This document shows, one piece after another, positions 949-36,950 of a stretch of 64,000 bases of DNA; positions within the stretch are counted from its first letter, which is position 1; every line of letters starts with the position of its first letter. The notes under the pieces were generated by a model that searched no databases, was not told where the DNA came from, and worked only from the letters and a program-made list of their open reading frames with translations. Source of the DNA: Thiocapsa rosea (lineage in GTDB: Bacteria; Pseudomonadota; Gammaproteobacteria; Chromatiales; Chromatiaceae); contig NZ_RBXL01000001.1 in the NCBI RefSeq assembly GCF_003634315.1, forward strand, positions 3,266,501 through 3,330,500. The letters run 5' to 3'. Both the position numbers and the translations under genes were made by a program.

Positions 949-1210
949 GGCGCGCTCCCGCGATCTGCTGCGTGCCGTGGTCAACATCGGCCCGTCCCAG
1001 CCCGAGCTGCTCGCGGATCTCGTGCAGTTGCCCAAGCGCTCGCGGGCCGCCCGGCTGCGCCACCTCGCCGCCGTCGGGTTGTTGACGATCAAAGGCGGTG
1101 CCGTTGCGCTTGCCAAGGTCGCACCGGCAACGCCGTCGACGCCCGACGATCCGGCGGCACTGCGGCGCCGGGATCGACTCGTCGGTCGGCTGGGGCGGGT
1201 CGATGATTAA
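938..1210 (+). CDS. small winged-helix-like protein next to ParM-like gene
   Basis: About 90 residues. The ATG at 938 lies inside the 3' end of the ParM-like gene, suggesting translational coupling. The segment PELLADLVQLPKRSRAARLRHLAAVGLLTIKGG reads like a winged-helix DNA-binding fold (helices followed by a short wing), of the kind seen in MarR-like or element-encoded regulators. The tail is basic. ParM needs a DNA-binding adaptor (ParR), normally ribbon-helix-helix; this protein sits where such an adaptor would be but has a different apparent fold. The stop overlaps the start of the transglycosylase gene. Function is inferred from position only. Confidence 0.55.
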   Translation: MPAEARSRDLLRAVVNIGPSQPELLADLVQLPKRSRAARLRHLAAVGLLTIKGGAVALAKVAPATPSTPDDPAALRRRDRLVGRLGRVDD

Positions 1211-2297
1211 GTGCGCCTGGTTTGCCGGTGTCCTCTGCGGTGTGCTGGCCACGACCGTGTCGGTCCATGCCGCGCCGGAAGCAATCGACGGCGCACCCGT
1301 CGGTACGCCCGACAGCCACGGCCAAGCATCGCTGCCGTCGGTCTGGGCCGAACCGGCAGGGGCTCAAGGGATCGAACCGCATCTGCTCTATGCCGCCGCG
1401 CTGTCGGCGAGCGGGCGGATCGCGAACGGGCAGGCCGCGCCGTGGCCCTGGACGCTCGTCGTGGACGGGCGTCGCGTGCACTACGCGACCCGCGAGGACG
1501 CGCAACGCGCCCTGGACGACGCCTCGTCGGACGCGGCGACAGACCTCGCGGTCGGACTCCTGGCCGTGCCGGTGCGCCACCTGTGGTTCGGCGGCACGCC
1601 GGCCGAATTGTTGGATCCGGCGCGCAACCTCGCGCGCGGGGCCGCGCTGATCGCCGTCGGCCTGCGCGCCTATCCGAGCAACCCGGCGCGGGGGATCGGT
1701 CAGTATCGCGCGGCATCGGACACCGCTGCCGAGACCCTCGGCGCGCGGATCCTCGCGCTCGCCGAGGCGCTGAGCGATCCGGCCACCGGGTTTGCGCCAT
1801 CTCCCGAACAGTCTTCCGCGCCTTCCGGGGCTCCGGCATCCGGCCCGCGTATTCGAACGGTCACGGCGGGCCTCCGTGCCCGCTGCATCGACCCTGACAA
1901 ACAACCCGTCGCCGCGCTCGTGGAGGCCGCCGCGCGCCGCCACGGCGTGGATCCGGCGTTCGCGCTCGCGATCGCCCGGCGCGAAAGTGCGTTCCGTCAG
2001 ACGGCGGTCTCCCCGAAGGGCGCGACCGGCGTGATGCAGCTGATGCCGGCGACCGCCGCGCGCTACGGCGCGAATCCGCGCGATCTGGAACAAAACATCG
2101 ACGCCGGCGTGCGCTACCTGCGCGATTTGGCCGGGATGTTCGACGGCGACCCCGCGTTGGTCGCCGCCGGCTACAACGCGGGGGAGGGCGCCGTGATCAA
2201 GCACGGCTATCGCATCCCGCCCTATCGCGAGACCCGCACCTATGTCCCCCGCGTTCTCGAATCCCGATCGGAGTATCTGCAATGTCGACAGCCCTGA
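1203..2297 (+). CDS. Conjugation-associated lytic transglycosylase with tandem SLT-like domains
   Basis: 364 residues. Signal peptide at residues 1-23 (MIKCAWFAGVLCGVLATTVS then VHA). The C-terminal domain (about 235-352) is a good SLT goose-type transglycosylase: catalytic Glu261 in ARRESAF, TGVMQLMP at 275-282 and AGYNAGEGAV at 322-331. Residues 57-172 follow the pattern of a second transglycosylase of ICE/pilus type (HLLYAAALSASG, PWPWTLVVDG, LDPARNLARGAALI, GQYRA), but where ALAESG is usual it reads ALSASG, so the catalytic Glu is Ala69. The enzyme would open peptidoglycan for the transfer apparatus in the periplasm. The ATG at 1203 overlaps the previous stop; the longer frame upstream lacks a signal peptide. 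The 3' end overlaps the FlhD-like gene by 16 bases. Confidence 0.88.
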   Translation: MIKCAWFAGVLCGVLATTVSVHAAPEAIDGAPVGTPDSHGQASLPSVWAEPAGAQGIEPHLLYAAALSASGRIANGQAAPWPWTLVVDGRRVHYATREDAQRALDDASSDAATDLAVGLLAVPVRHLWFGGTPAELLDPARNLARGAALIAVGLRAYPSNPARGIGQYRAASDTAAETLGARILALAEALSDPATGFAPSPEQSSAPSGAPASGPRIRTVTAGLRARCIDPDKQPVAALVEAAARRHGVDPAFALAIARRESAFRQTAVSPKGATGVMQLMPATAARYGANPRDLEQNIDAGVRYLRDLAGMFDGDPALVAAGYNAGEGAVIKHGYRIPPYRETRTYVPRVLESRSEYLQCRQP

Positions 2298-3228: not shown

Positions 3229-4229
3229 TGCGACCGATCCGACACCGCGCCGACGCCCTCGCCGCGGGCCTCCTGGTCGCACTGACGGCCGTGCCGACGC
3301 TCGCGACACCCGCGGGCGGCTTCTACGCGCGCGATGCCGAGGGCTGGTTCTGGTATCGGGAGCCGCCCCTGCCCGAGCCGGTGCCTGTCGTGCCTGCGCC
3401 GAGCGCCGAGCCGCCGCAAGCGCCCGTCGAGGCGAAACCCTCCGAGCCTCTCGCGGAGGTCTCCCCCGGACCGGCGCCGCTCTCCGCACACTGGTTCCGG
3501 GAAAATCTGGACACCTACCGCGACCGCGCCATCGACGATCCGTCCCCCGAGAACGTGGCGGTCTACCTGCACCTGCAACGCATCGCGATGGACAAGTCCT
3601 CGCGCTTCGCCCGGGTGTCCGAGCGTGTGGTGCAGGGCGATCCCGTCCTCGACGAGATCACCCGTCGACCCACCGCCAACTTCGGCGCGAACCTGGCCGA
3701 CAAGCAGGCGAGCGCCGCCGGCGACGCGCTGCTCGAACGCCTTGCCGGGGAGACCGCGCTCTGGTTCCTCTTCCGCTCGGACTGTCCCTATTGCGATGCG
3801 CAAGCCCCGCTCCTGGAGGCCCTCGCGCAGCGCTACGGCTTCGCGGTGCTGGCGGTCTCGCTCGACGGGGCCGGCCTCGCGGACGGGACGTTTCCCGCCT
3901 TCGAGATCGACCGCGGTCAGGCCGAGGCGCTGGGCGTGATCTCCACCCCGGCGATGTTCCTCGCCCGCCCGGATCAGGGTGCGGTGGCGCCGATTGCCCA
4001 GGGACTGCTCTCGCTCGCCCAGCTGCGCGATCGCATCGTCCTCGCCGCCGTCCAGGCCGGCTGGGTGAGCGAGGCGGAGGCGAGCCGTCTCCGAGCGGGT
4101 TCGGCCGATCGGGGCAGCGCTGCCGCGACGCTCACCGCACTCCCCGAGGATCCGTCCGCCTTGCTTGAGGCACTGCGCGCGACCGTCCCACCCGACACCC
4201 GACCCGACACCTACCAGGCCCCTCGATGA
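3228..4229 (+). CDS. traF: TraF, F-type conjugal pilus assembly protein with thioredoxin fold
   Basis: 333 residues. A signal peptide (ALAAGLLVALTAVPTLATPA) is followed by GGFYARDAEGWFWYREP, the usual TraF opening, a proline-rich linker, and WFRENLDTYRDRAIDDP. The C-terminal half is a thioredoxin-like fold with an intact redox pair in LFRSDCPYCDAQAP and the cis-proline loop STPAMFLARP. TraF acts in the periplasm with TraH and others in F-type pilus assembly; an active CPYC suggests it also oxidises or isomerises disulfides of partners, as F TrbB does. It begins inside the FlhC-like stop and ends overlapping traH, so it lies in one operon. Confidence 0.9.
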   Translation: MRPIRHRADALAAGLLVALTAVPTLATPAGGFYARDAEGWFWYREPPLPEPVPVVPAPSAEPPQAPVEAKPSEPLAEVSPGPAPLSAHWFRENLDTYRDRAIDDPSPENVAVYLHLQRIAMDKSSRFARVSERVVQGDPVLDEITRRPTANFGANLADKQASAAGDALLERLAGETALWFLFRSDCPYCDAQAPLLEALAQRYGFAVLAVSLDGAGLADGTFPAFEIDRGQAEALGVISTPAMFLARPDQGAVAPIAQGLLSLAQLRDRIVLAAVQAGWVSEAEASRLRAGSADRGSAAATLTALPEDPSALLEALRATVPPDTRPDTYQAPR

Positions 4230-5671
4230 AGATCCGACTCGCATCCTCCCTTGTCCTGATCGCCGCGACGGCGTCGCCCGGCGCCGTCACGGCCGCCGGC
4301 ATCGCCACCCAGTCGAGCATCATGTTCGACAGCATGGTCAATCTGACCAACCCCTCGGCGCACATGGGACAGCGCCGCGGCGCCTTCTCGGGCGGCTCGG
4401 TCGTGAACCGCAACCGCCTCATGAGCGAGTCGCTCTGGCATGTGGTCCCGCCGTCCTTCGAGGCCGGCTGCGGGGGCATCGACATGTTCGCCGGCTCCTT
4501 CAGCTTCATCTCCGCGGATCAGTTCCAACAGCTGATGCGCTCGATCGCGGCGAACGCGACCGGCTACGCCTTCGAGGTCGCCCTGACCGCCATGTGCCCG
4601 ACCTGTGTCGAGGTCATGGAGTCGCTGCAGCGCAAGCTCCAGGCGCTCAATCAGGGCTACGCCAACTCCTGCCAGCTCGCCAAGGGTCTGGTCAACGACG
4701 TGGCGAGCGCCTTCGACGTGCAACACAAGGACAACACCTCGCTGGTGGCGATGGTGAAGGGCTTCGGCGACGTCTTCGAGACCCGCAGCCTGACCTCCGG
4801 GGAAAGCCCGGTGAACCAGGTCGCGAACAACCTGACCGAGGAGCAGCGCGCCGAGGCCGATCTGCAGGGCAATCTGGTCTGGCAGGCGCTCAAACGCCAG
4901 GGCGCGGCCGGCTGGTTCGTCGGCGGCGACGATGCCCTGCTCGAAGCCATCATGAGCGTGACCGGCTCGGTGATCCTCGGCCCGCCCGAGCCCGCACCCG
5001 ACGGGGCCGGCGACAACTTCCGGGTCACCCCGCTGCCGGGCAACCTCATGAGCGTGCGCGATCTGCTCTGGGGCAGCAGCGCGCACGAGGACACCAGCAG
5101 TGGTCAGAGCACCGTCAACCATGTCGTGCGGCGCTACAGCTGCAACGACACGGCGGTCAACGGCTGCATGGCGCCGAGCGTGATCGCCGATACCCAGACC
5201 GTGGGGCTGGTGCAGTACACCGATCACCTGCTGCTGGGCGATCCGAACGTCGCGGGCAGCGTCGGTCTGGTGCAGAAGTTCCGTCTGGGCGCGACCGCAC
5301 CGACCGCCCGCGAGCAGGCCTTCATGGAGCTCGCCCCCAACGGCATCGGCGCACAACTGCGCAACCTCGCCCGTCACGACGCGGGGCTGGCGCGGATCTT
5401 CGCCAAACAGGCGGCTCCGGTGATCGCGCTGGAGATGGCTCAGCTCATCATGTCCGACCTGCTGCGTGCCGCGGAGAACGCACTCGCGATGGGTGGCAGC
5501 GCCTACACCGCCAAGGTCGCCGAGCAGATCAAGGGCGCGCGCGAGCAGGTGTATCGCGAATACGCCGTCCTCGCCGCGCGCTACGGCAACGCCCAGACCC
5601 TGCTTGCCTACTACCAAGACCTGTCCGCCCAAGTGAAGGGCCGGGCCGAGTCCACTCCCAACCAGCGCTGA
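4226..5671 (+). CDS. traH: TraH, F-type conjugal pilus assembly protein
   Basis: 481 residues. Signal peptide at 1-23 (KIRLASSLVLIAATASPGAVTAA). The family pattern follows: MFDSMVNLTNPSA, RRGAFSGGSVVNRNRL, then a Cys-containing segment FEAGCGGIDMFAGSFSFISADQF that is strongly characteristic of TraH, ALTAMCPTCVEVMESLQ, and a C-terminal helical region. TraH lies in the periplasm or outer membrane part of the F-type system and is needed for pilus extension and retraction. ATG overlaps the traF stop (ATGA), and traG follows after 15 bases, the usual F-type order traF-traH-traG. Confidence 0.92.
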   Translation: MKIRLASSLVLIAATASPGAVTAAGIATQSSIMFDSMVNLTNPSAHMGQRRGAFSGGSVVNRNRLMSESLWHVVPPSFEAGCGGIDMFAGSFSFISADQFQQLMRSIAANATGYAFEVALTAMCPTCVEVMESLQRKLQALNQGYANSCQLAKGLVNDVASAFDVQHKDNTSLVAMVKGFGDVFETRSLTSGESPVNQVANNLTEEQRAEADLQGNLVWQALKRQGAAGWFVGGDDALLEAIMSVTGSVILGPPEPAPDGAGDNFRVTPLPGNLMSVRDLLWGSSAHEDTSSGQSTVNHVVRRYSCNDTAVNGCMAPSVIADTQTVGLVQYTDHLLLGDPNVAGSVGLVQKFRLGATAPTAREQAFMELAPNGIGAQLRNLARHDAGLARIFAKQAAPVIALEMAQLIMSDLLRAAENALAMGGSAYTAKVAEQIKGAREQVYREYAVLAARYGNAQTLLAYYQDLSAQVKGRAESTPNQR

Positions 5672-5686
5672 GGCACGGCAACAGCC

Positions 5687-8600
5687 ATGTTCGAGATTTC
5701 TTCCATCGGCGACGCCGCCTACCTCGCCGCCGTCCTCAACGCCGTGGCCATGCTCATGGGCACCGGCAACATGAGCCAGCTCGCCGGCGTGGGCTTCCTG
5801 ATCGGCGTCATCTTGGTGACCTTCCAGGGCCTGGTGCAGGCGCGCGCCCCCCAGTACCAGCAGATGCTGATCGCGCTGGTCATCTATCTGGGCATGTTCG
5901 GCCCGAGTGCGCGGGTGAGCGTGGAGGACCTCTACTCCGGGGCGGTGCACCGGGTCGACAACGTTCCCCTGGGCGTGGCCGCCGTGGGCTCGGCGCTCTC
6001 GCAGGTGGGCTACGGCGTGACCCGGCTCTTCGAGCAGGCGTTCTCCACCCCGGCGATGACCGATTATGGCTTCGCCGCACCCCTGCAGATCCTGCAGAGC
6101 GTGCGCGCGGGGACCCTCTCGCGCGCGCGGCTCGGTGCGGCCAACAGCCCGACACCGGGTGCGGACATCGAGCGCTCCTTCGTCAACTACATCGCCGAGT
6201 GCGTGCTCTACGATGTCGACACCGGACAACGCTCCCTGGACAGCGTGCTGCGCGATCCGAGCTGGACCGGCGCGCTGGCGGTTGCCAATGCGATGCCGAC
6301 CACCGAGCTGTGGTTGGGCGGGGCCCCGACGGTGAAGGAATGCGACGACGCTTGGGCGGATCTGTCCGCCTACACCACCACCGAGTTCCTGCCGGCGCTG
6401 CGCGGCTCGCTCGCCGCCACCCTCGCCGTGCAGGCCGGGGAGGTGGACAACGCCGTGCAGACCGCGCTGGATGCCGTCGCCGGCGCCGGGGTGGATGCGC
6501 AGAACTACATGGTGATGTCGGTGGCGGCGAGCGTCCTGCCCAAGGGCGAGGCGCAGGTGTGGGAGGAGCTCGGGCGCTGGGAAACCGCCGCGACCATCAC
6601 CCAGGCCGCCCAGCAGCGCAACACCCAATGGGCCGCCGAGGAGACCCTGTTCGCACGCATCGTGCGCCCCATGATGACCTTCTTCGAGGCGTTCCTGTTC
6701 GCCGTCTCCCCGCTGATGGTCTTCGCCGTCGGGCTCGGTACGATCGGCATCCGGATGATCGGCAAGTACCTGCTGTTCGGCCTCTGGATCCAGCTCTGGC
6801 AGCCGATCCTCGCGGTGATCAACCTCTACATCATCCTGACGACCCAAGGCAAACTCGACGCGCTGAGGAACGCCGGGATGGGCAACCTGGAGCTGCCCTC
6901 GATCTTCGCGCTGTGGAAGCTCGACTTCATCCTCTCGGATTATCTCGGGGTCGGCGGGATGCTCGCGGCGAGCACGCCGGCGATCTCCTTGATGCTGATC
7001 TACGGCTCGGCGGTGACCGCGACCCATTTGGCGGGACGCCTGCAAGGCGGCGACCACGTCAACGAGAAGATCGCGAGCCCCGATGCGGTGAATCCCGCGG
7101 CCGCCCTGTCGATGGGGTCGCTCAAGACCCATGCCCCGCTCACCGGCACGACGACGCCGAACGCCAATTCCGTGCTCTGGTCGGCGGATGTCGGGCGCTC
7201 CATGCAGGACAGCGTGCGCTCCGGCGAGCAGGCCGTGCAGCAGGCCAGCTCCCGTTTCTCCTCCTCGCTGGCCGGCACCGCGAGTGCGTCGGCGTCGCGG
7301 TCCGGCGAGTCCTTTGCCTCACGGTCCATGAACTGGGACTACGGGGCGACAGGAAGTGCGACCGATCGCGCGATCATGAGCGAAGCGCGGGGGCTTACGG
7401 AGAAGTATGAGCAGAGCGGGATGAGTACACAGCAAATGGCCGGCATCGTCTCCGGAGCCATCGCAGCGAAGGGCCGCTTGGGTGGCGATGAGGGCAGCCT
7501 CGCGGGTGATCTCTCGACCCAACTCCGAAGCCAGTACATCACCGACGTCAAACTCGCCGACACGATGGCTGCCGATATCGCTCGCCGTGTTTCGGGTGAT
7601 TCCGGCTTCGAGGCGCGTCTTGCCGAATCGATCCGCGCCGACTCCCAATCCGGCAGCCGCAACGTCTTCGCGGAGCGGCTCTCCAGCGACGAAAGCGCGC
7701 GGTTGGAGAAGGACGCAGCCGATGTGGTCTCCTCCTCGCGTTCGCTGGAGCGCGAGCAGTCGCTGGCGCGACGCTACGGCGCCATGGGCACCTACGGCGC
7801 CGCCGAGATCGGCAATGCGATTTCCAACGATCCGGAACTCATGGATCGGCTGCACCGGGAAATCGACCGACGCAATCTGACCGGGGATCACCAGCAACTC
7901 TCGGGCTCGTGGGCTTACGCCCGGAACCTCAACCGCGACGCGGCGAGCGCGGCGGCAGGTGTGGCGCTGTTGATCGGGCACGCCGAGGGAACGACCTTGC
8001 GGCGATTCACCCCGGCGGAGGCGCAGAGTGCGAAAGAGGCCGGATACGGCATTCTGGCGGACACGTTCGGAACACACGCGCCTGCGATCAACCCGCACGA
8101 CAACGCTGATCTGCGCGAGTCCGCTCCGCACTTCGGAGCCGCGCGAGGTGCGGTCGAAAGCGTCGGTTTGCAGGATCCTCGCGACGACGTCGCAGGCCTG
8201 CGCGGCGACATCGAGGCGCACGGGCGTTCGGTCGAGACCCAGTATAGGCCGAGTGCCGCCGACAACTTCCATGCCGCCAACCGCGAGTCTGCCGCAGAGG
8301 GCCTTGCCGCCCGACAGGATCAGGTTCGCGAGCAGGTTCGCGAACGCATCGGGTCGGAGATCGACCGGCGGGCGATCTTGCCGCGTCCCGCAGCGCAGGC
8401 CCTCCACAACGAAGTCGGGGGCACCTTCGTGAAGCTTGCGGAGACCGGGGCCTTGGCCAGCGCCGGGGCAACGGCTGCTCTGGGACAGACCGTCGCGGCC
8501 GCGAAGGCCTTCGGCTCCACCCTGGCGAGCGGAGGCGATGTCGCCGCGGCGGTCGCTGCCGGACGGGAGGCCGCAGGGGGCGAGGTCGGCTGGACGCAGG

Positions 8601-9439
8601 CACGGGGCGCCATGATCGACGCCCGTCTGCAGCAGGTTGCCGGCCACGGTTTGACGGATGCCCAGCAGACCCTGTTCCGGGAAGCCACGACGTCCGTGTT
8701 TGCCTTCGCGCCGAGCGCTGCGCAACAGGCGGCCCGTCAAGCGGTCATCGACGAGGCCGGAGGCGGGGCGAGGGGTCAACATATGGCCGACCTCGTCGAA
8801 CGTTCCGCGGTGTCGCGCGACGACAGCGATCTGCGCCTGATCGGCACCTACAATGCGCAAGGCATCGGCTCAAAAAAAAAGACTGATGGACTAAGCGGCG
8901 CTTCCCGGCCAAGCGGAACCCCGGTCACGGAACGCAGCGTGACACCGGGACCGCGCGGCGAGGTGCTGGATCTGCTGGCCCAACCGGAGTCTCGCGGCAA
9001 CTACAACGCCTGGTTCGGCAAGGCCGATCAGAGCGCGATCGACCTGACCCGGATGACGGTGTCCGAGGTACGGGCGCTCCAGAGTCGACTCTTGGAGAGC
9101 GGAAACGGAGGGTCGGCGATCGGTCGCTATCAGATCATTCCGAGCACGTTCGATGGGTTGATCAACCGGATGGGGTTGACGGGGGAGGAACTGTTCAGCC
9201 GTCAGCTCCAGGATCGGATGGCGTTGCGACTCGCAAACGATGCCGGCATGAGCAGTTGGCTGCGTGGCGGGATCAGCGATCACGACTTCGCCCACAACTT
9301 GTCCCGCATCTGGGCCGGGCTACCCAAGGATGCGTCGAACGAGAGCTTCTATCAGAAAGACGGTGTCAACAAAGCCCACATCGATTACGGTGTCGTTATC
9401 GCAACACTCGGTGAGATTCGCGGGCGATCGGGATCCTGA
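5687..9439 (+). CDS. traG: TraG mating-pair stabilisation protein fused to a C-terminal lysozyme-like domain
   Basis: 1250 residues. Residues 1 to about 470 match the TraG N-terminal domain: several membrane segments (AVLNAVAMLMGTGNMSQLAG, LIALVIYLGMFGPSARV) and the region PMMTFFEAFLFAVSPLMVF to MLIYGSAVTATHLAGRLQGG. A long Ala/Ser-rich periplasmic part follows. From about residue 1085 there is a distinct lysozyme-like domain with a candidate catalytic Glu in AQPESRGNYNAWFG, then GRYQIIPSTF and a C-terminal helical part. The joint carries a run of nine A at 8872-8880. In F, TraG stabilises mating pairs; the fused muramidase-like part could open peptidoglycan at the contact. The C-terminal entry-exclusion type region of F TraG is not obvious. 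Confidence 0.9.
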   Translation: MFEISSIGDAAYLAAVLNAVAMLMGTGNMSQLAGVGFLIGVILVTFQGLVQARAPQYQQMLIALVIYLGMFGPSARVSVEDLYSGAVHRVDNVPLGVAAVGSALSQVGYGVTRLFEQAFSTPAMTDYGFAAPLQILQSVRAGTLSRARLGAANSPTPGADIERSFVNYIAECVLYDVDTGQRSLDSVLRDPSWTGALAVANAMPTTELWLGGAPTVKECDDAWADLSAYTTTEFLPALRGSLAATLAVQAGEVDNAVQTALDAVAGAGVDAQNYMVMSVAASVLPKGEAQVWEELGRWETAATITQAAQQRNTQWAAEETLFARIVRPMMTFFEAFLFAVSPLMVFAVGLGTIGIRMIGKYLLFGLWIQLWQPILAVINLYIILTTQGKLDALRNAGMGNLELPSIFALWKLDFILSDYLGVGGMLAASTPAISLMLIYGSAVTATHLAGRLQGGDHVNEKIASPDAVNPAAALSMGSLKTHAPLTGTTTPNANSVLWSADVGRSMQDSVRSGEQAVQQASSRFSSSLAGTASASASRSGESFASRSMNWDYGATGSATDRAIMSEARGLTEKYEQSGMSTQQMAGIVSGAIAAKGRLGGDEGSLAGDLSTQLRSQYITDVKLADTMAADIARRVSGDSGFEARLAESIRADSQSGSRNVFAERLSSDESARLEKDAADVVSSSRSLEREQSLARRYGAMGTYGAAEIGNAISNDPELMDRLHREIDRRNLTGDHQQLSGSWAYARNLNRDAASAAAGVALLIGHAEGTTLRRFTPAEAQSAKEAGYGILADTFGTHAPAINPHDNADLRESAPHFGAARGAVESVGLQDPRDDVAGLRGDIEAHGRSVETQYRPSAADNFHAANRESAAEGLAARQDQVREQVRERIGSEIDRRAILPRPAAQALHNEVGGTFVKLAETGALASAGATAALGQTVAAAKAFGSTLASGGDVAAAVAAGREAAGGEVGWTQARGAMIDARLQQVAGHGLTDAQQTLFREATTSVFAFAPSAAQQAARQAVIDEAGGGARGQHMADLVERSAVSRDDSDLRLIGTYNAQGIGSKKKTDGLSGASRPSGTPVTERSVTPGPRGEVLDLLAQPESRGNYNAWFGKADQSAIDLTRMTVSEVRALQSRLLESGNGGSAIGRYQIIPSTFDGLINRMGLTGEELFSRQLQDRMALRLANDAGMSSWLRGGISDHDFAHNLSRIWAGLPKDASNESFYQKDGVNKAHIDYGVVIATLGEIRGRSGS
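8872..8880 (+). promoter_or_regulatory. A9 slippage-prone tract between TraG and its lysozyme-like domain
   Basis: Nine consecutive A in a very GC-rich gene, read TCA AAA AAA AAG, giving S-K-K-K at residues 1062-1065. The last seven bases fit the slippery heptamer A AAA AAG. Insertion of one A, or a -1 ribosomal shift, gives GAC then TGA at 8884-8886; loss of one A, or +1, leads to TAA at 8892-8894. Either slip ends the protein just before the lysozyme-like domain. Whether slipping happens is inference. Confidence 0.5.
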
Positions 9440-9515: not shown

Positions 9516-9833
9516 ATGAACAGCAGTGAGCGTTGGGCGCGAGCATTCGGATCCATACCATCGAGGGTGTGGTGGATCATCTGCACGCCCGTTATTTTTG
9601 CTCTCTTGTTTCTCCTCGACAGGCATTTAGGTATGACGTCGTTGTTGGTCGGGATGGTCGTCCTGGGGTTGACCTTTCCGCGGGAAAAAATGAAGAGACA
9701 GACGATCAAGCGAAGCAACGACTTCTGGATCAATCCTTCGACCGGAATGATGATGGATTCGGCCGGCGGCGTGGATTCGTCGGGTTATTTGTTCGGCGAA
9801 GACACTTCAGTGGATTACCCCGATCACTCTTGA
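9516..9833 (+). CDS. small membrane protein downstream of traG
   Basis: 105 residues. A GGAGGT ribosome site at 9504-9509 supports ATG 9516 (longer frame upstream has no such site). Two adjacent hydrophobic stretches (VWWIICTPVIFALLFLLDRH and MTSLLVGMVVLGLTFP) form a likely hairpin in the inner membrane, followed by a basic and then polar, acidic C-terminus. No family recognised. It follows traG by 76 bases, is oriented with the transfer genes, and its base use is less GC-rich than theirs. Its stop (9831-9833) abuts the stop of the opposite-strand yqaA gene, so this may be the edge of the transfer operon. Confidence 0.65.
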   Translation: MNSSERWARAFGSIPSRVWWIICTPVIFALLFLLDRHLGMTSLLVGMVVLGLTFPREKMKRQTIKRSNDFWINPSTGMMMDSAGGVDSSGYLFGEDTSVDYPDHS

Positions 9834-34396: not shown

Positions 34397-35793
34397 TGCC
34401 TGCAGAAGCCTATCGTTCCGCATGTGATCCGATGACCGATAACCTGACACAGCAGTTTGTTGCCCGCCTCCAGGTTTTAGCCGATGGCAGATTGGCCGGT
34501 GCTGAGATCCAACAGGCAAAACGCTGCCTTCTGGACTATATCGGTGCAGCACTGGCTGGCGCGGCGATCATTCGTCCGCAGGCTGAGAAGCTCTTGGCAC
34601 ACGGCTACGAAACAAAGGGCGGTTCGACGGTCATCGGTTTCGGCGCAAGGGCGGGACTAGAAACCGCAACCCTTGTGAATGGACTGTCGTCGCATGTCGC
34701 GGAAATGGATGACGGCGTCCGATTCGGAATGATTCATCCGGGATCGCCCATCTTCTCCTGCTTGCTGCCGGCTGCCGAACGCTATTCGGTCCAGGCGAGC
34801 GATCTCATCAAAGGCATCGTCATTGGCTATGATGCCGCACTGAGGCTCGCGAGCGCGATCCAGCCATCGCACTACCAACGTGGATACCATCCAACGGCCA
34901 CTTGCGGAACAATCGGCGCGGCCATGGGCCTCGGCGCGATGTTGGGATTTGATCCTCAGGAGATGGGATCGACCTTCGCCGCTGCCTGCGTGTCCGCATC
35001 GGGAAGCCTCAAGGTCGTCGATGACGGCTCCGAGTTGAAGCCCTACAACGCCGGCCGCGCAGCAGTTGTCGGATTGTTGTCCGCACAGATGGCCCGCGCA
35101 GGCTTCGGCGCTCCGCCGGATGCCCTGTCCGGTGAGGCTGGATTCCTGGCGATGATGTGTGACGGCTACGATGTGGAACGGCTCATCGAGCCATCCTCCG
35201 CCGGCTTCTGGATCCATCAGGTCTACGTCAAACCCTACGCTGCCTGTCGTCACGCACACCCCTCGATTGAAGCCTGCCTGCGTCTTCGCGAGCGGATTGA
35301 TCTAAACACCGATCAGATCAGCGGCATCCGAGTGACAACCTACAAAGGGCTGGTCGGAAGACATGACCACCGGACGTTCACCAATGTTGCATCGGCAAGA
35401 ATGAGCATTCCGTATGGGGTGGCGGTCGCTTTGGTTTATGGACGAGCGGGCATCGGCGAATTCACGGATGAAACCATCAGTAATCCAACGGTCCGCGCAC
35501 TCGCATTAAAGGTCGAAGTCGTGTCGGACGATGCATTCACCGCCTGGGTGCCTGAAAAACGTGCGGCACGAGTCGAAATCACCCTTAAGGATGGGACTGT
35601 CTACGAGGATCTGGTCGAGTATCCAAAGGGTGAGCCTGAGAATCCAATGACCGATCGTGAGTTAGAAGACAAATTTTTCGCCTTGTCCGAGTATGGTGGA
35701 CATGGGCCGGAGTCGTCCCGGATGATCGTCGAAACTGTTTGGAACCTCCCCGACAACCTTGAGCAGTTCTTCAGTCAGCTTCGTCATTGTTGA
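34396..35793 (+). CDS. MmgE/PrpD family protein
   Basis: 465 residues. Typical blocks: IQQAKRCLLDYIGAALAGA, STVIGFGARAGLETATLVNGLSSHVAEMDDGVRFGMIHPGSPIFS, GIVIGYDAALRLASAIQPSHYQRGYHPTATCGTIGAAMG, KPYNAGRAAVVGLLSAQMA and VYVKPYAACRHAHPSIEA. The family includes 2-methylcitrate dehydratase, cis-aconitate decarboxylase and iminodisuccinate epimerase, all acting on tricarboxylate-like or aminodicarboxylate substrates. Either ATG 34396 (overlapping the AKR stop) or ATG 34432 may be the start. No methylcitrate-cycle genes are near, so a biosynthetic role on a C4-C6 carboxylic acid is more likely. Confidence 0.85.
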   Translation: MPAEAYRSACDPMTDNLTQQFVARLQVLADGRLAGAEIQQAKRCLLDYIGAALAGAAIIRPQAEKLLAHGYETKGGSTVIGFGARAGLETATLVNGLSSHVAEMDDGVRFGMIHPGSPIFSCLLPAAERYSVQASDLIKGIVIGYDAALRLASAIQPSHYQRGYHPTATCGTIGAAMGLGAMLGFDPQEMGSTFAAACVSASGSLKVVDDGSELKPYNAGRAAVVGLLSAQMARAGFGAPPDALSGEAGFLAMMCDGYDVERLIEPSSAGFWIHQVYVKPYAACRHAHPSIEACLRLRERIDLNTDQISGIRVTTYKGLVGRHDHRTFTNVASARMSIPYGVAVALVYGRAGIGEFTDETISNPTVRALALKVEVVSDDAFTAWVPEKRAARVEITLKDGTVYEDLVEYPKGEPENPMTDRELEDKFFALSEYGGHGPESSRMIVETVWNLPDNLEQFFSQLRHC

Positions 35794-35810
35794 AGGAAAA
35801 GAGCACGACC

Positions 35811-36950
35811 ATGATCAACCTGACCGAGTTCTACACACTTCTAAAAAATGCCGGCGTGGACTTCGTCACCGGTGTCCCCGATACCTTGCTCAATGATTTC
35901 TGTCTCGGCCTGAATGCGCAATGGCCTGGTCACCGGCATGTCATCGCTGCGAATGAAGGTAATGCGATCGCACTGGCAACAGGGTACCATCTTGCAACCG
36001 GTACCGTGCCACTCGTCTATATGCAAAATTCCGGTATGGGAAATGCCATCAATCCATTGGTCTCCTTGGCGGACCCGGCGGTCTATGGGATTCCGATGGT
36101 CTTGTTGATCGGATGGCGCGGTGAACCTGGGTCCGGTGACTGGCCCCAACATCAACGCCAAGGCGAGCTTAGTCCGATTCTCCTCGACGCCCTGCGCATT
36201 CCATACCAGGTACTGGACATCGACGAGACGCGAGTACATGAAGCCGCCCAATGGGCTGTAAGCACCGCCCGTGCGGCAAGTCAGCCTACAGCGTTGCTAG
36301 TGAAAAAAAACATTTTGGCGCGTAAAGAAAAAGCAGGTTTTGACATGGAGGAACAACAATATTTGCTGAGCCGGGAGGATGCGATACGGACGATAATCTC
36401 CAGTGCGCCAGAAGACACGATCTACGTTGCCTCCACCGGGCGAATCACTCGCGAAATTCACGCTATCCGGGACGCTTTGGGCCAGCCTCACGACCGTGAC
36501 TTCCTAAATGTCGGGGCAATGGGGCACGCGCTTTCAATCGCCGCGGGCATCGCCGTCGCGCGCTCCGACCGTCACGTTATGTGCATTGATGGGGATGGCG
36601 CGTCAATCATGCACCTTGGTTCGCTCCCTGCCACCGCTCACATGCTACTCCCGAACCTCATCCACGTAGTTTTGAATAATGGTGCACACGAATCCGTTGG
36701 CGGACAGCCGACTGCAGCATTCTTTGCCGATCTTACCGGCATCGCAACAGCATCCGGGTACGTAACACTTCAAAGACCAATCACAACACATTCTGAGATA
36801 ACGTCTAACCTAACTCGGCTTATGAAGAGGGAAAAGACTTCCTTTCTGGAAATAAGAATAAGGAAAGGCATGCGGACAAATACTCCAATTCTTAAGATCA
36901 GAATTAAAGATGATAAGCGAACGTTCATGCAGAGCCTTGCCGCTGAATGA
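35811..36950 (+). CDS. ppd: phosphonopyruvate decarboxylase (TPP enzyme)
   Basis: 379 residues. ThDP features are clear: the opening GVDFVTGVPDTLLNDFCLGLN, catalytic Glu in VIAANEGNAIALATGYHLATG, YMQNSGMGNAINPLVSLADP, GWRGEPGSGDWPQHQRQGEL, and the ThDP-Mg motif CIDGDGASIMHLGSLPA ending NLIHVVLNNGAHESVGGQPT, which is highly specific to phosphonopyruvate decarboxylases. It turns 3-phosphonopyruvate into phosphonoacetaldehyde and CO2, pulling phosphonate synthesis forward. No PEP mutase is in the window, so substrate may be phosphonopyruvate made elsewhere or a mimic such as sulfopyruvate. The last 50 codons become AT-rich and Lys-rich, unlike the front. Confidence 0.88.
   Translation: MINLTEFYTLLKNAGVDFVTGVPDTLLNDFCLGLNAQWPGHRHVIAANEGNAIALATGYHLATGTVPLVYMQNSGMGNAINPLVSLADPAVYGIPMVLLIGWRGEPGSGDWPQHQRQGELSPILLDALRIPYQVLDIDETRVHEAAQWAVSTARAASQPTALLVKKNILARKEKAGFDMEEQQYLLSREDAIRTIISSAPEDTIYVASTGRITREIHAIRDALGQPHDRDFLNVGAMGHALSIAAGIAVARSDRHVMCIDGDGASIMHLGSLPATAHMLLPNLIHVVLNNGAHESVGGQPTAAFFADLTGIATASGYVTLQRPITTHSEITSNLTRLMKREKTSFLEIRIRKGMRTNTPILKIRIKDDKRTFMQSLAAE

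Follow-up and report, generated by a model that had tools for sequence, protein, structure and literature searches.

A nine-adenine tract between TraG and its wall hydrolase in Thiocapsa rosea: a predicted site of programmed slippage

Why does the conjugation gene traG of Thiocapsa rosea carry a run of nine A exactly where the TraG part of its product joins a C-terminal wall-hydrolase domain? The gene lies in a 64-kb window (contig NZ_RBXL01000001.1, positions 3,266,501 to 3,330,500, forward strand; assembly GCF_003634315.1), which is the whole stretch of DNA analyzed here. An initial annotation had proposed that slippage on this A9 tract yields a TraG without the enzyme, so that one gene makes two forms. 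Its description of the site is exact: the A9, the A_AAA_AAG in frame, the TGA reached after a gained A and the TAA reached after a lost A all stand where it had placed them (Table 1). The context reads TCA AAA AAA AAG ACT, coding for S1062-K-K-K-T1066. The preferred reading, held at a probability of roughly 0.73, is that the A9 represents a programmed, mainly transcriptional, slippage site splitting TraG into enzyme-bearing and enzyme-free forms.

Tract, stops and enzymes at the joint

The tract is kept in many related genes. Forty-five TraG-hydrolase joints from 28 Chromatiaceae genomes were counted; a contig listed in two collections, recognized by its length or an identical match, entered once. 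An A-run of at least 8 is present in 34 of the 45 (29 A9, 3 A8, 2 A10), and the copy of Thiocapsa roseopersicina DSM 217 is an A9. Plasmids of Methylomonas (order Methylococcales) carry A9 at the same joint in four of four cases, with a traG GC content of 52-56% in the three measured. All joints pooled, the tract occurs in 38/49 and is exactly A9 in 33 of the 38 tract genes. A lack of conservation in related fusions, listed by the initial annotation among the refuting findings, is thus not what was seen: both groups keep the tract, although not universally. In 36 loci comprising 391,651 bases, 32 A/T runs of at least 8 were detected, 28 of them at this joint. The longest A-run in the traG coding sequence upstream of the joint measures 6 (44 genes, 132,612 nucleotides).

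Several searches underlie these counts. TraG found matches in 23 of 142 relatives (E 0.001) and in 32 of 210 genomes of the order (E 1e-20), own genome included in both. A named genome collection held 92 relatives among 142 candidates, and the best 80 were used. A plasmid search matched 1439 records, none over more than 80% of the TraG query, and nine plasmids were examined. With a 422-residue C-terminal query, 80% was covered in 4 of 1743 matching plasmid records, all from Methylomonas. A wider search with Methylomonas TraG matched 8/369 genomes of the class (E 1e-30) and 4/398 of the phylum (E 1e-40), own included; own genome apart, no listed match of this search covers both the TraG and the hydrolase parts (two best candidates per genome scored). 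Unscored were L133, which holds the hydrolase side only, L015/L053 and L028/L057, where the contig stops before the joint, L123, whose match ends at residue 699, the distant or partial L017-L023 and small fragments in G006, G014, G179 and G246. For the L015 genome, the other half was scored as L165. In L133 (G145:C37, about bases 1-97, reverse complement), AT-rich foreign DNA meets a traG remnant exactly at the A9, and the TraG side is missing, as would result from insertion of an element into the tract or next to it.

Chance or a genome artefact has been considered as an explanation. The A9 is unique in the window, where dinucleotide shuffles expect 0.14, and 11 of 100 shuffles contained at least one; the window tract alone is therefore only mildly unusual, and a single A9 per 64 kb is not rare. 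It goes beyond chance because it is conserved in relatives. The recurrence at the same position in 38 genes of Chromatiaceae and Methylomonas rejects chance, the least probable of the explanations weighed here.

The conservation is one of DNA rather than of protein. The run starts at codon position 2 (E/Q-KK-T/S) or 3 (S-KKK-T; G/V/L/I-KK-N) according to the clade, the two Thiocapsa groups differ in this phase, and the residues coded by the tract differ between clades. A protein that needs Lys-Lys in a conserved Lys-rich linker, with the A-run as by-product, would explain the two Lys found at the joint in nearly all aligned tract genes (34 and 33 of 34). However, when 34 of the 38 tract genes were aligned by codon (four short rows dropped), these Lys were AAA in 34/34 and 32/33 cases, compared to 0-59% AAA in 15 other columns with at least ten Lys. 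Upstream of the joint, AAG makes up 77% of the Lys codons. The flanking codons include the rare choices TCA (4.5% of Ser) and GGA (12% of Gly). The third-base identity at fourfold sites is 44-55% in the 11 clade pairs printed and 73% between the two Thiocapsa groups, so silent sites had ample time to change. Eleven fused genes manage without a tract. Codon use and phase changes reject the protein-level constraint, which is considered very improbable; by this comparison, the tract is conserved at the DNA level beyond the need of the protein.

Both slipped frames end shortly after the run. Across the 33 A9 genes, a stop would be met after a median of 1 codon when an A is gained and of 6 codons when one is lost. 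Shifts placed along the same gene bodies gave medians averaging about 77 and 22 codons, respectively. Two stops as near as these have a null frequency below 0.05 in every one of the 33 genes except L050, and 23 genes fall below 0.01; the genes are related, and the result does not represent 33 independent tests.

The enzyme behind the tract varies. A phage-lysozyme-like domain follows it in the window gene and in L013, and the hydrolase alignment also took in Thiocystis-, Thiorhodococcus-, Thiohalocapsa- and Lamprobacter-type genes. In Lamprocystis (L036), an SLT domain is located behind the tract (E 4e-26), as in all four Methylomonas plasmid TraG (E 6e-24 to 4e-22). Thiodictyon (L037, L055) has M23 (E 1e-32) together with SLT (E 3e-23 to 4e-24). 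The slip site is thus kept though the enzyme differs. A lysozyme-like fusion had been claimed for the window gene. A match to phrog_90 'endolysin' (E 1.4e-17) supports a phage-endolysin-like enzyme. Profile matches to the lysozymes 3d3d and 1am7 are weak (E 0.004-0.005), and the Pfam scan of the C-terminal domain gave no match above cut-off. We take 1am7 to be lambda lysozyme and hydrolases of its kind to be GH104. The domain profile also matches a '66 kDa protein', 11mn_A (E 2e-4). The candidate catalytic Glu, E1101, is invariant in both hydrolase alignments, of 7 and 21 rows. The same domain (32% identity) occurs without a TraG match within a 3364-codon open frame (L020, G007:C299:8712-9266), an arrangement that suggests a phage or tail-protein source of the hydrolase.

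Tract conservation, the two phases, the three kinds of hydrolase and the stops in both frames support the two-form interpretation of the initial annotation, as far as comparison of sequences can. A broader idea is put forward tentatively, at somewhat less than even odds. The tract may serve an entire lineage of conjugative elements as an evolutionarily durable 'dosage linker', setting the fraction of enzyme-bearing TraG and staying in place while the enzyme is exchanged. If so, each channel would combine TraG with and without the enzyme, in proportions fixed by stuttering of RNA polymerase, and this mosaic could respond to whatever changes slippage in a new host.

Transcript, ribosome or DNA

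In the proposed mechanism, RNA polymerase would slip on the A9 and produce traG mRNAs with 9 A (or 9 ± 3n) and with other counts. The former would yield full-length TraG with a periplasmic peptidoglycan hydrolase. Other counts would meet a stop just past the run, giving an enzyme-free TraG of about 1066-1068 residues, similar to the TraG proteins of related systems, which have no hydrolase at their end. A single gene would thereby supply a mixture, and only part of the TraG subunits in the transfer channel would carry the wall-cutting domain. What the sequences show is the tract, the stops, the conservation of both in the nucleotides and the different enzymes behind one tract. We infer that slippage takes place, that RNA polymerase rather than the ribosome slips, in what ratio the forms arise, that the enzyme lies in the periplasm and that both forms are needed.

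RNA polymerase is favored because nine A are mostly kept whatever the phase, the heptamer varies and neither a conserved Shine-Dalgarno sequence nor a conserved hairpin accompanies the tract. Ribosomal slippage would give the short TraG from a uniform mRNA, either by a -1 shift on A_AAA_AAG, of the E. coli dnaX type, or by sliding on AAA. The heptamer stands in frame in the window gene with a -1 stop two codons on. The -1 frame, which equals the frame after a gained A, has the nearer stop in general (median 1 codon), and sliding of ribosomes on A-runs is known (PMC4363877, in the excerpt consulted). The slippery heptamer is A_AAA_AAG in the window gene and A_AAA_AAA or A_AAA_AAC in other clades, whereas the length of nine is mostly kept; a -1 heptamer requires fewer than nine A. 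A conserved hairpin was not found in the 38 genes: folds 3' of the run have a mean z of -0.12, with individual genes between -3.7 and 1.6 (window gene +1.61), and folds 5' of it have a mean z of 0.16. Strings of the GGAG/AGGA/GAGG type were present within 20 nucleotides upstream in 8/38 and not in the window gene; there is no conserved Shine-Dalgarno sequence. The run length therefore is the constant element. At a run length of nine, moreover, a large share of the genomes surveyed shows evident selection against slippage (PMC1088944, in excerpt). A cassette of the E. coli dnaX type was rejected for the 38 genes, in which no slippery heptamer is conserved in a fixed phase and the stimulators are not conserved. 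Ribosomal slippage as a whole is judged unlikely.

At the DNA level, the hydrolase is in frame in 32/38 tract genes and out of frame in six, namely the three with A8 (L032, L035, L079), the two with A10 (L002, L135) and one with A9 (L050). In L050 (Halochromatium roseum, about 8167-8180), the A9 is intact and a base was lost just after the run, as judged against the sister L047; the templated frame ends before the hydrolase. A one-A slip would restore the enzyme frame in five of the six copies. In L032, a slip of one A either way meets a stop before the enzyme, so this copy looks decayed. The out-of-frame copies could be due to decay, sequencing or assembly error or DNA-level switching. The last would make the tract a contingency locus, with replication slippage in the A-run toggling the hydrolase between cells or strains. 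A8 or A10 occurs in 5/38 tract genes, and genome G004 carries an A10 copy and an A9 copy. If the run varied freely, one third would be expected, far below the 33/38 with exactly A9 and the 32/38 with the enzyme in frame, and some A8 and A10 may be assembly errors. Switching at the DNA level is regarded as improbable, well behind ribosomal slippage.

Several observations weigh against transcriptional slippage as a programmed feature. The counted genes are related, some with multiple copies per genome, and are not independent events. The six out-of-frame copies, above all L032, belong here. Two tract genes (L025, L135) are broken elsewhere too; the tract-free L127 is broken as well, which leaves no clear excess of breaks among the tract genes. 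Finally, 11/45 fused Chromatiaceae genes have no A-run of at least 7 (L008, L009, L038, L039, L040, L054, L058, L059, L060, L127, L165); the short form is thus not needed in every case, or these genes produce it in another way. Seven of the 11 form a tract-free clade in the tree (L009, L038, L039, L058, L059, L060, L127). By the authors' pairing of genomes, a tract-free element stands beside a tract-bearing one in five genomes: Thiorhodococcus drewsii, Thiorhodococcus minor, Thiocystis violacea, Allochromatium humboldtianum and G146. Presence and absence of the tract require 5 changes on the trimmed tree, a quick tree with a long-branch warning and without L165, on which gain and loss are not separable.

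Outside Chromatiaceae, no A-run of at least 7 occurs in 45 delimited TraG genes; L081 has a single T7. The 45 derive from the 49 loci L062-L110, where L079 and L105 are Chromatiaceae tract genes and L085 and L108 could not be delimited. Pfam finds TraG_N alone in L062, L104 and L109 (the three scanned among the 45 non-Chromatiaceae genes) and in plasmid TraG proteins of Azospirillum, Geoalkalibacter, P. frederiksbergensis, Halomonas KO116 and Comamonas, whose genes contain no coding run of at least 7.

The traG gene and its surroundings

The coordinates are compiled in Table 1. TraG_N (PF07916) scores 342 bits in the traG product, compared to a curated cut-off of 36.1, which places the protein in this family. 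The closest named relatives are Thiocapsa species.

Table 1. Features of the traG region, in positions of the window
Feature	Position	Strand	Basis or remark
Separate SLT lytic transglycosylase, same cluster	1098..2297	+	PF01464, E 7.4e-26
traH, immediately 5' of traG, same transfer cluster	4226..5671	+	PF06122, E 3.5e-92
traG, TraG_N protein with C-terminal wall-hydrolase domain, 1250 residues	5687..9439	+	1250-codon open reading frame
TraG_N domain, residues 4-458	5696..7060	+	PF07916, E 7.4e-102
A9, predicted slip site, TraG-hydrolase joint	8872..8880	+	sequence; kept in homologues
A_AAA_AAG heptamer in frame, ribosomal -1 slippery type	8875..8881	+	not kept as such in homologues
TGA ending the one-A-gain product	8884..8886	+	predicted 1066 residues, ...SKKKD
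TAA ending the one-A-loss product	8892..8894	+	predicted 1068 residues, ...SKKRLMD
Phage-lysozyme-like hydrolase domain, about residues 1088-1250	8948..9436	+	profile matches, alignments
Candidate catalytic Glu codon, E1101	8987-8989	+	alignment
Small open reading frame 3' of traG, faintly TraS-like (entry exclusion)	9516..9833	+	PF10624, E 0.028 (on 9519-9833), below cut-off

A VirB1-like role is inferred for the SLT transglycosylase. The small frame behind traG occupies the place where F has traS. An actin-like (ALP_N) protein is encoded 5' of the transfer genes (22-948); its nearest NCBIfam model is PRTRC system protein D, with E 1.3e-30, which is under the cut-off of that model. On the same contig, just left of the window (3262799-3263719), a relaxase matches TraI_2 (E 9.7e-88), which we take to be of the MOBH type.

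Further runs were observed elsewhere. The own genome of 6.11 Mb contains eight exact A9, both strands counted. Among the seven besides traG, three (L159, L160, L161) precede a GC-rich inverted repeat that resembles a terminator, and one (L158) sits 24 codons before the end of a 219-codon open frame. Inspection of the seven found only L163 well inside a long running open frame (G000:C1:5064300-5066800, minus strand; 456 codons), where the A9 comprises three in-frame AAA codons (EKKKVER). This frame resembles, by the authors' reading, a P-loop (KAP-like) NTPase and is another candidate for slippage. The window also holds an A8 (36303-36310) inside a 395-codon open frame (35763-36947, plus strand). 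Two Methylomonas plasmids (L137, L138) have a T8 at base 579, the same place in traF, possibly a second slip site.

Comparison with known systems

TraG of F/R100 and of SXT/R391-like elements belongs to the same TraG_N family (PF07916), likewise with traH directly before traG. The TraG of F has a periplasmic C-terminal part (PMC9797247, in excerpt). The 45 tract-free genes from outside Chromatiaceae are, by the authors' reading, mostly SXT-like; the title of PMC5122569 gives two of the strains, Marinomonas fungiae and M. profundimaris D104, as carriers of SXT/R391. Other transfer machines also cut the wall, by means of VirB1-type proteins, PrgK and the TraG of pIP501, with SLT and LytM domains among others; a slippage-controlled tail on TraG_N is not described for them in the excerpts of PMC12857230. 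In the authors' judgement, the pIP501 protein shares only its name with the TraG discussed here.

The heptamer of the window traG is the A_AAA_AAG of E. coli dnaX, and a stop likewise follows shortly in the -1 frame. In contrast to that system, the traG heptamer is not kept in homologues, and a conserved Shine-Dalgarno sequence and hairpin are missing. Closer to the proposal is dnaX of Thermus thermophilus, where an A9 with nearby stops gives 50% short product; full-length protein is templated by nine A, and other counts meet a near stop and yield a shorter form (PMC1088944, in excerpt). The Thermus gene encodes a DNA polymerase subunit (tau/gamma), whereas traG encodes a conjugation protein from which an enzyme would be removed, and this enzyme differs between lineages. 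Slippage is reported for Thermus and predicted for traG.

In literature under open license in PMC, including the consulted parts of PMC3711429, PMC5009743 and PMC12857230, slippage was not found described for TraG or any other protein of conjugation. The mechanism itself is known; the conjugation case is unreported in the literature searched, and its unusual trait would be the same slip site in front of differing enzymes. If the proposal is true, programmed slippage sits in the core of a conjugation machine and suggests, for this branch, how a dangerous wall hydrolase in the channel stays substoichiometric. Since the enzymes differ while the site is fixed, frame-locked alleles would allow a direct test of the ratio hypothesis. 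The tract offers a ready sequence signature for further cases, and members with A8 or A10 may be labelled pseudogenes too readily.

A further known system is tssM of type VI secretion in Citrobacter rodentium (A11) and Yersinia pseudotuberculosis, another envelope-machine protein of two lengths with an important ratio. Slippage on the A11 amounts to about 20-25%, and both forms are needed; Shigella type III genes show slippage as well, according to the same source (PMC4256274, in excerpt). The shortened TssM loses an interaction domain, while TraG would lose a hydrolase. Slippage is reported as not common among tssM genes (PMC4256274, in excerpt), whereas the TraG tract is present in 38 of 49 joints.

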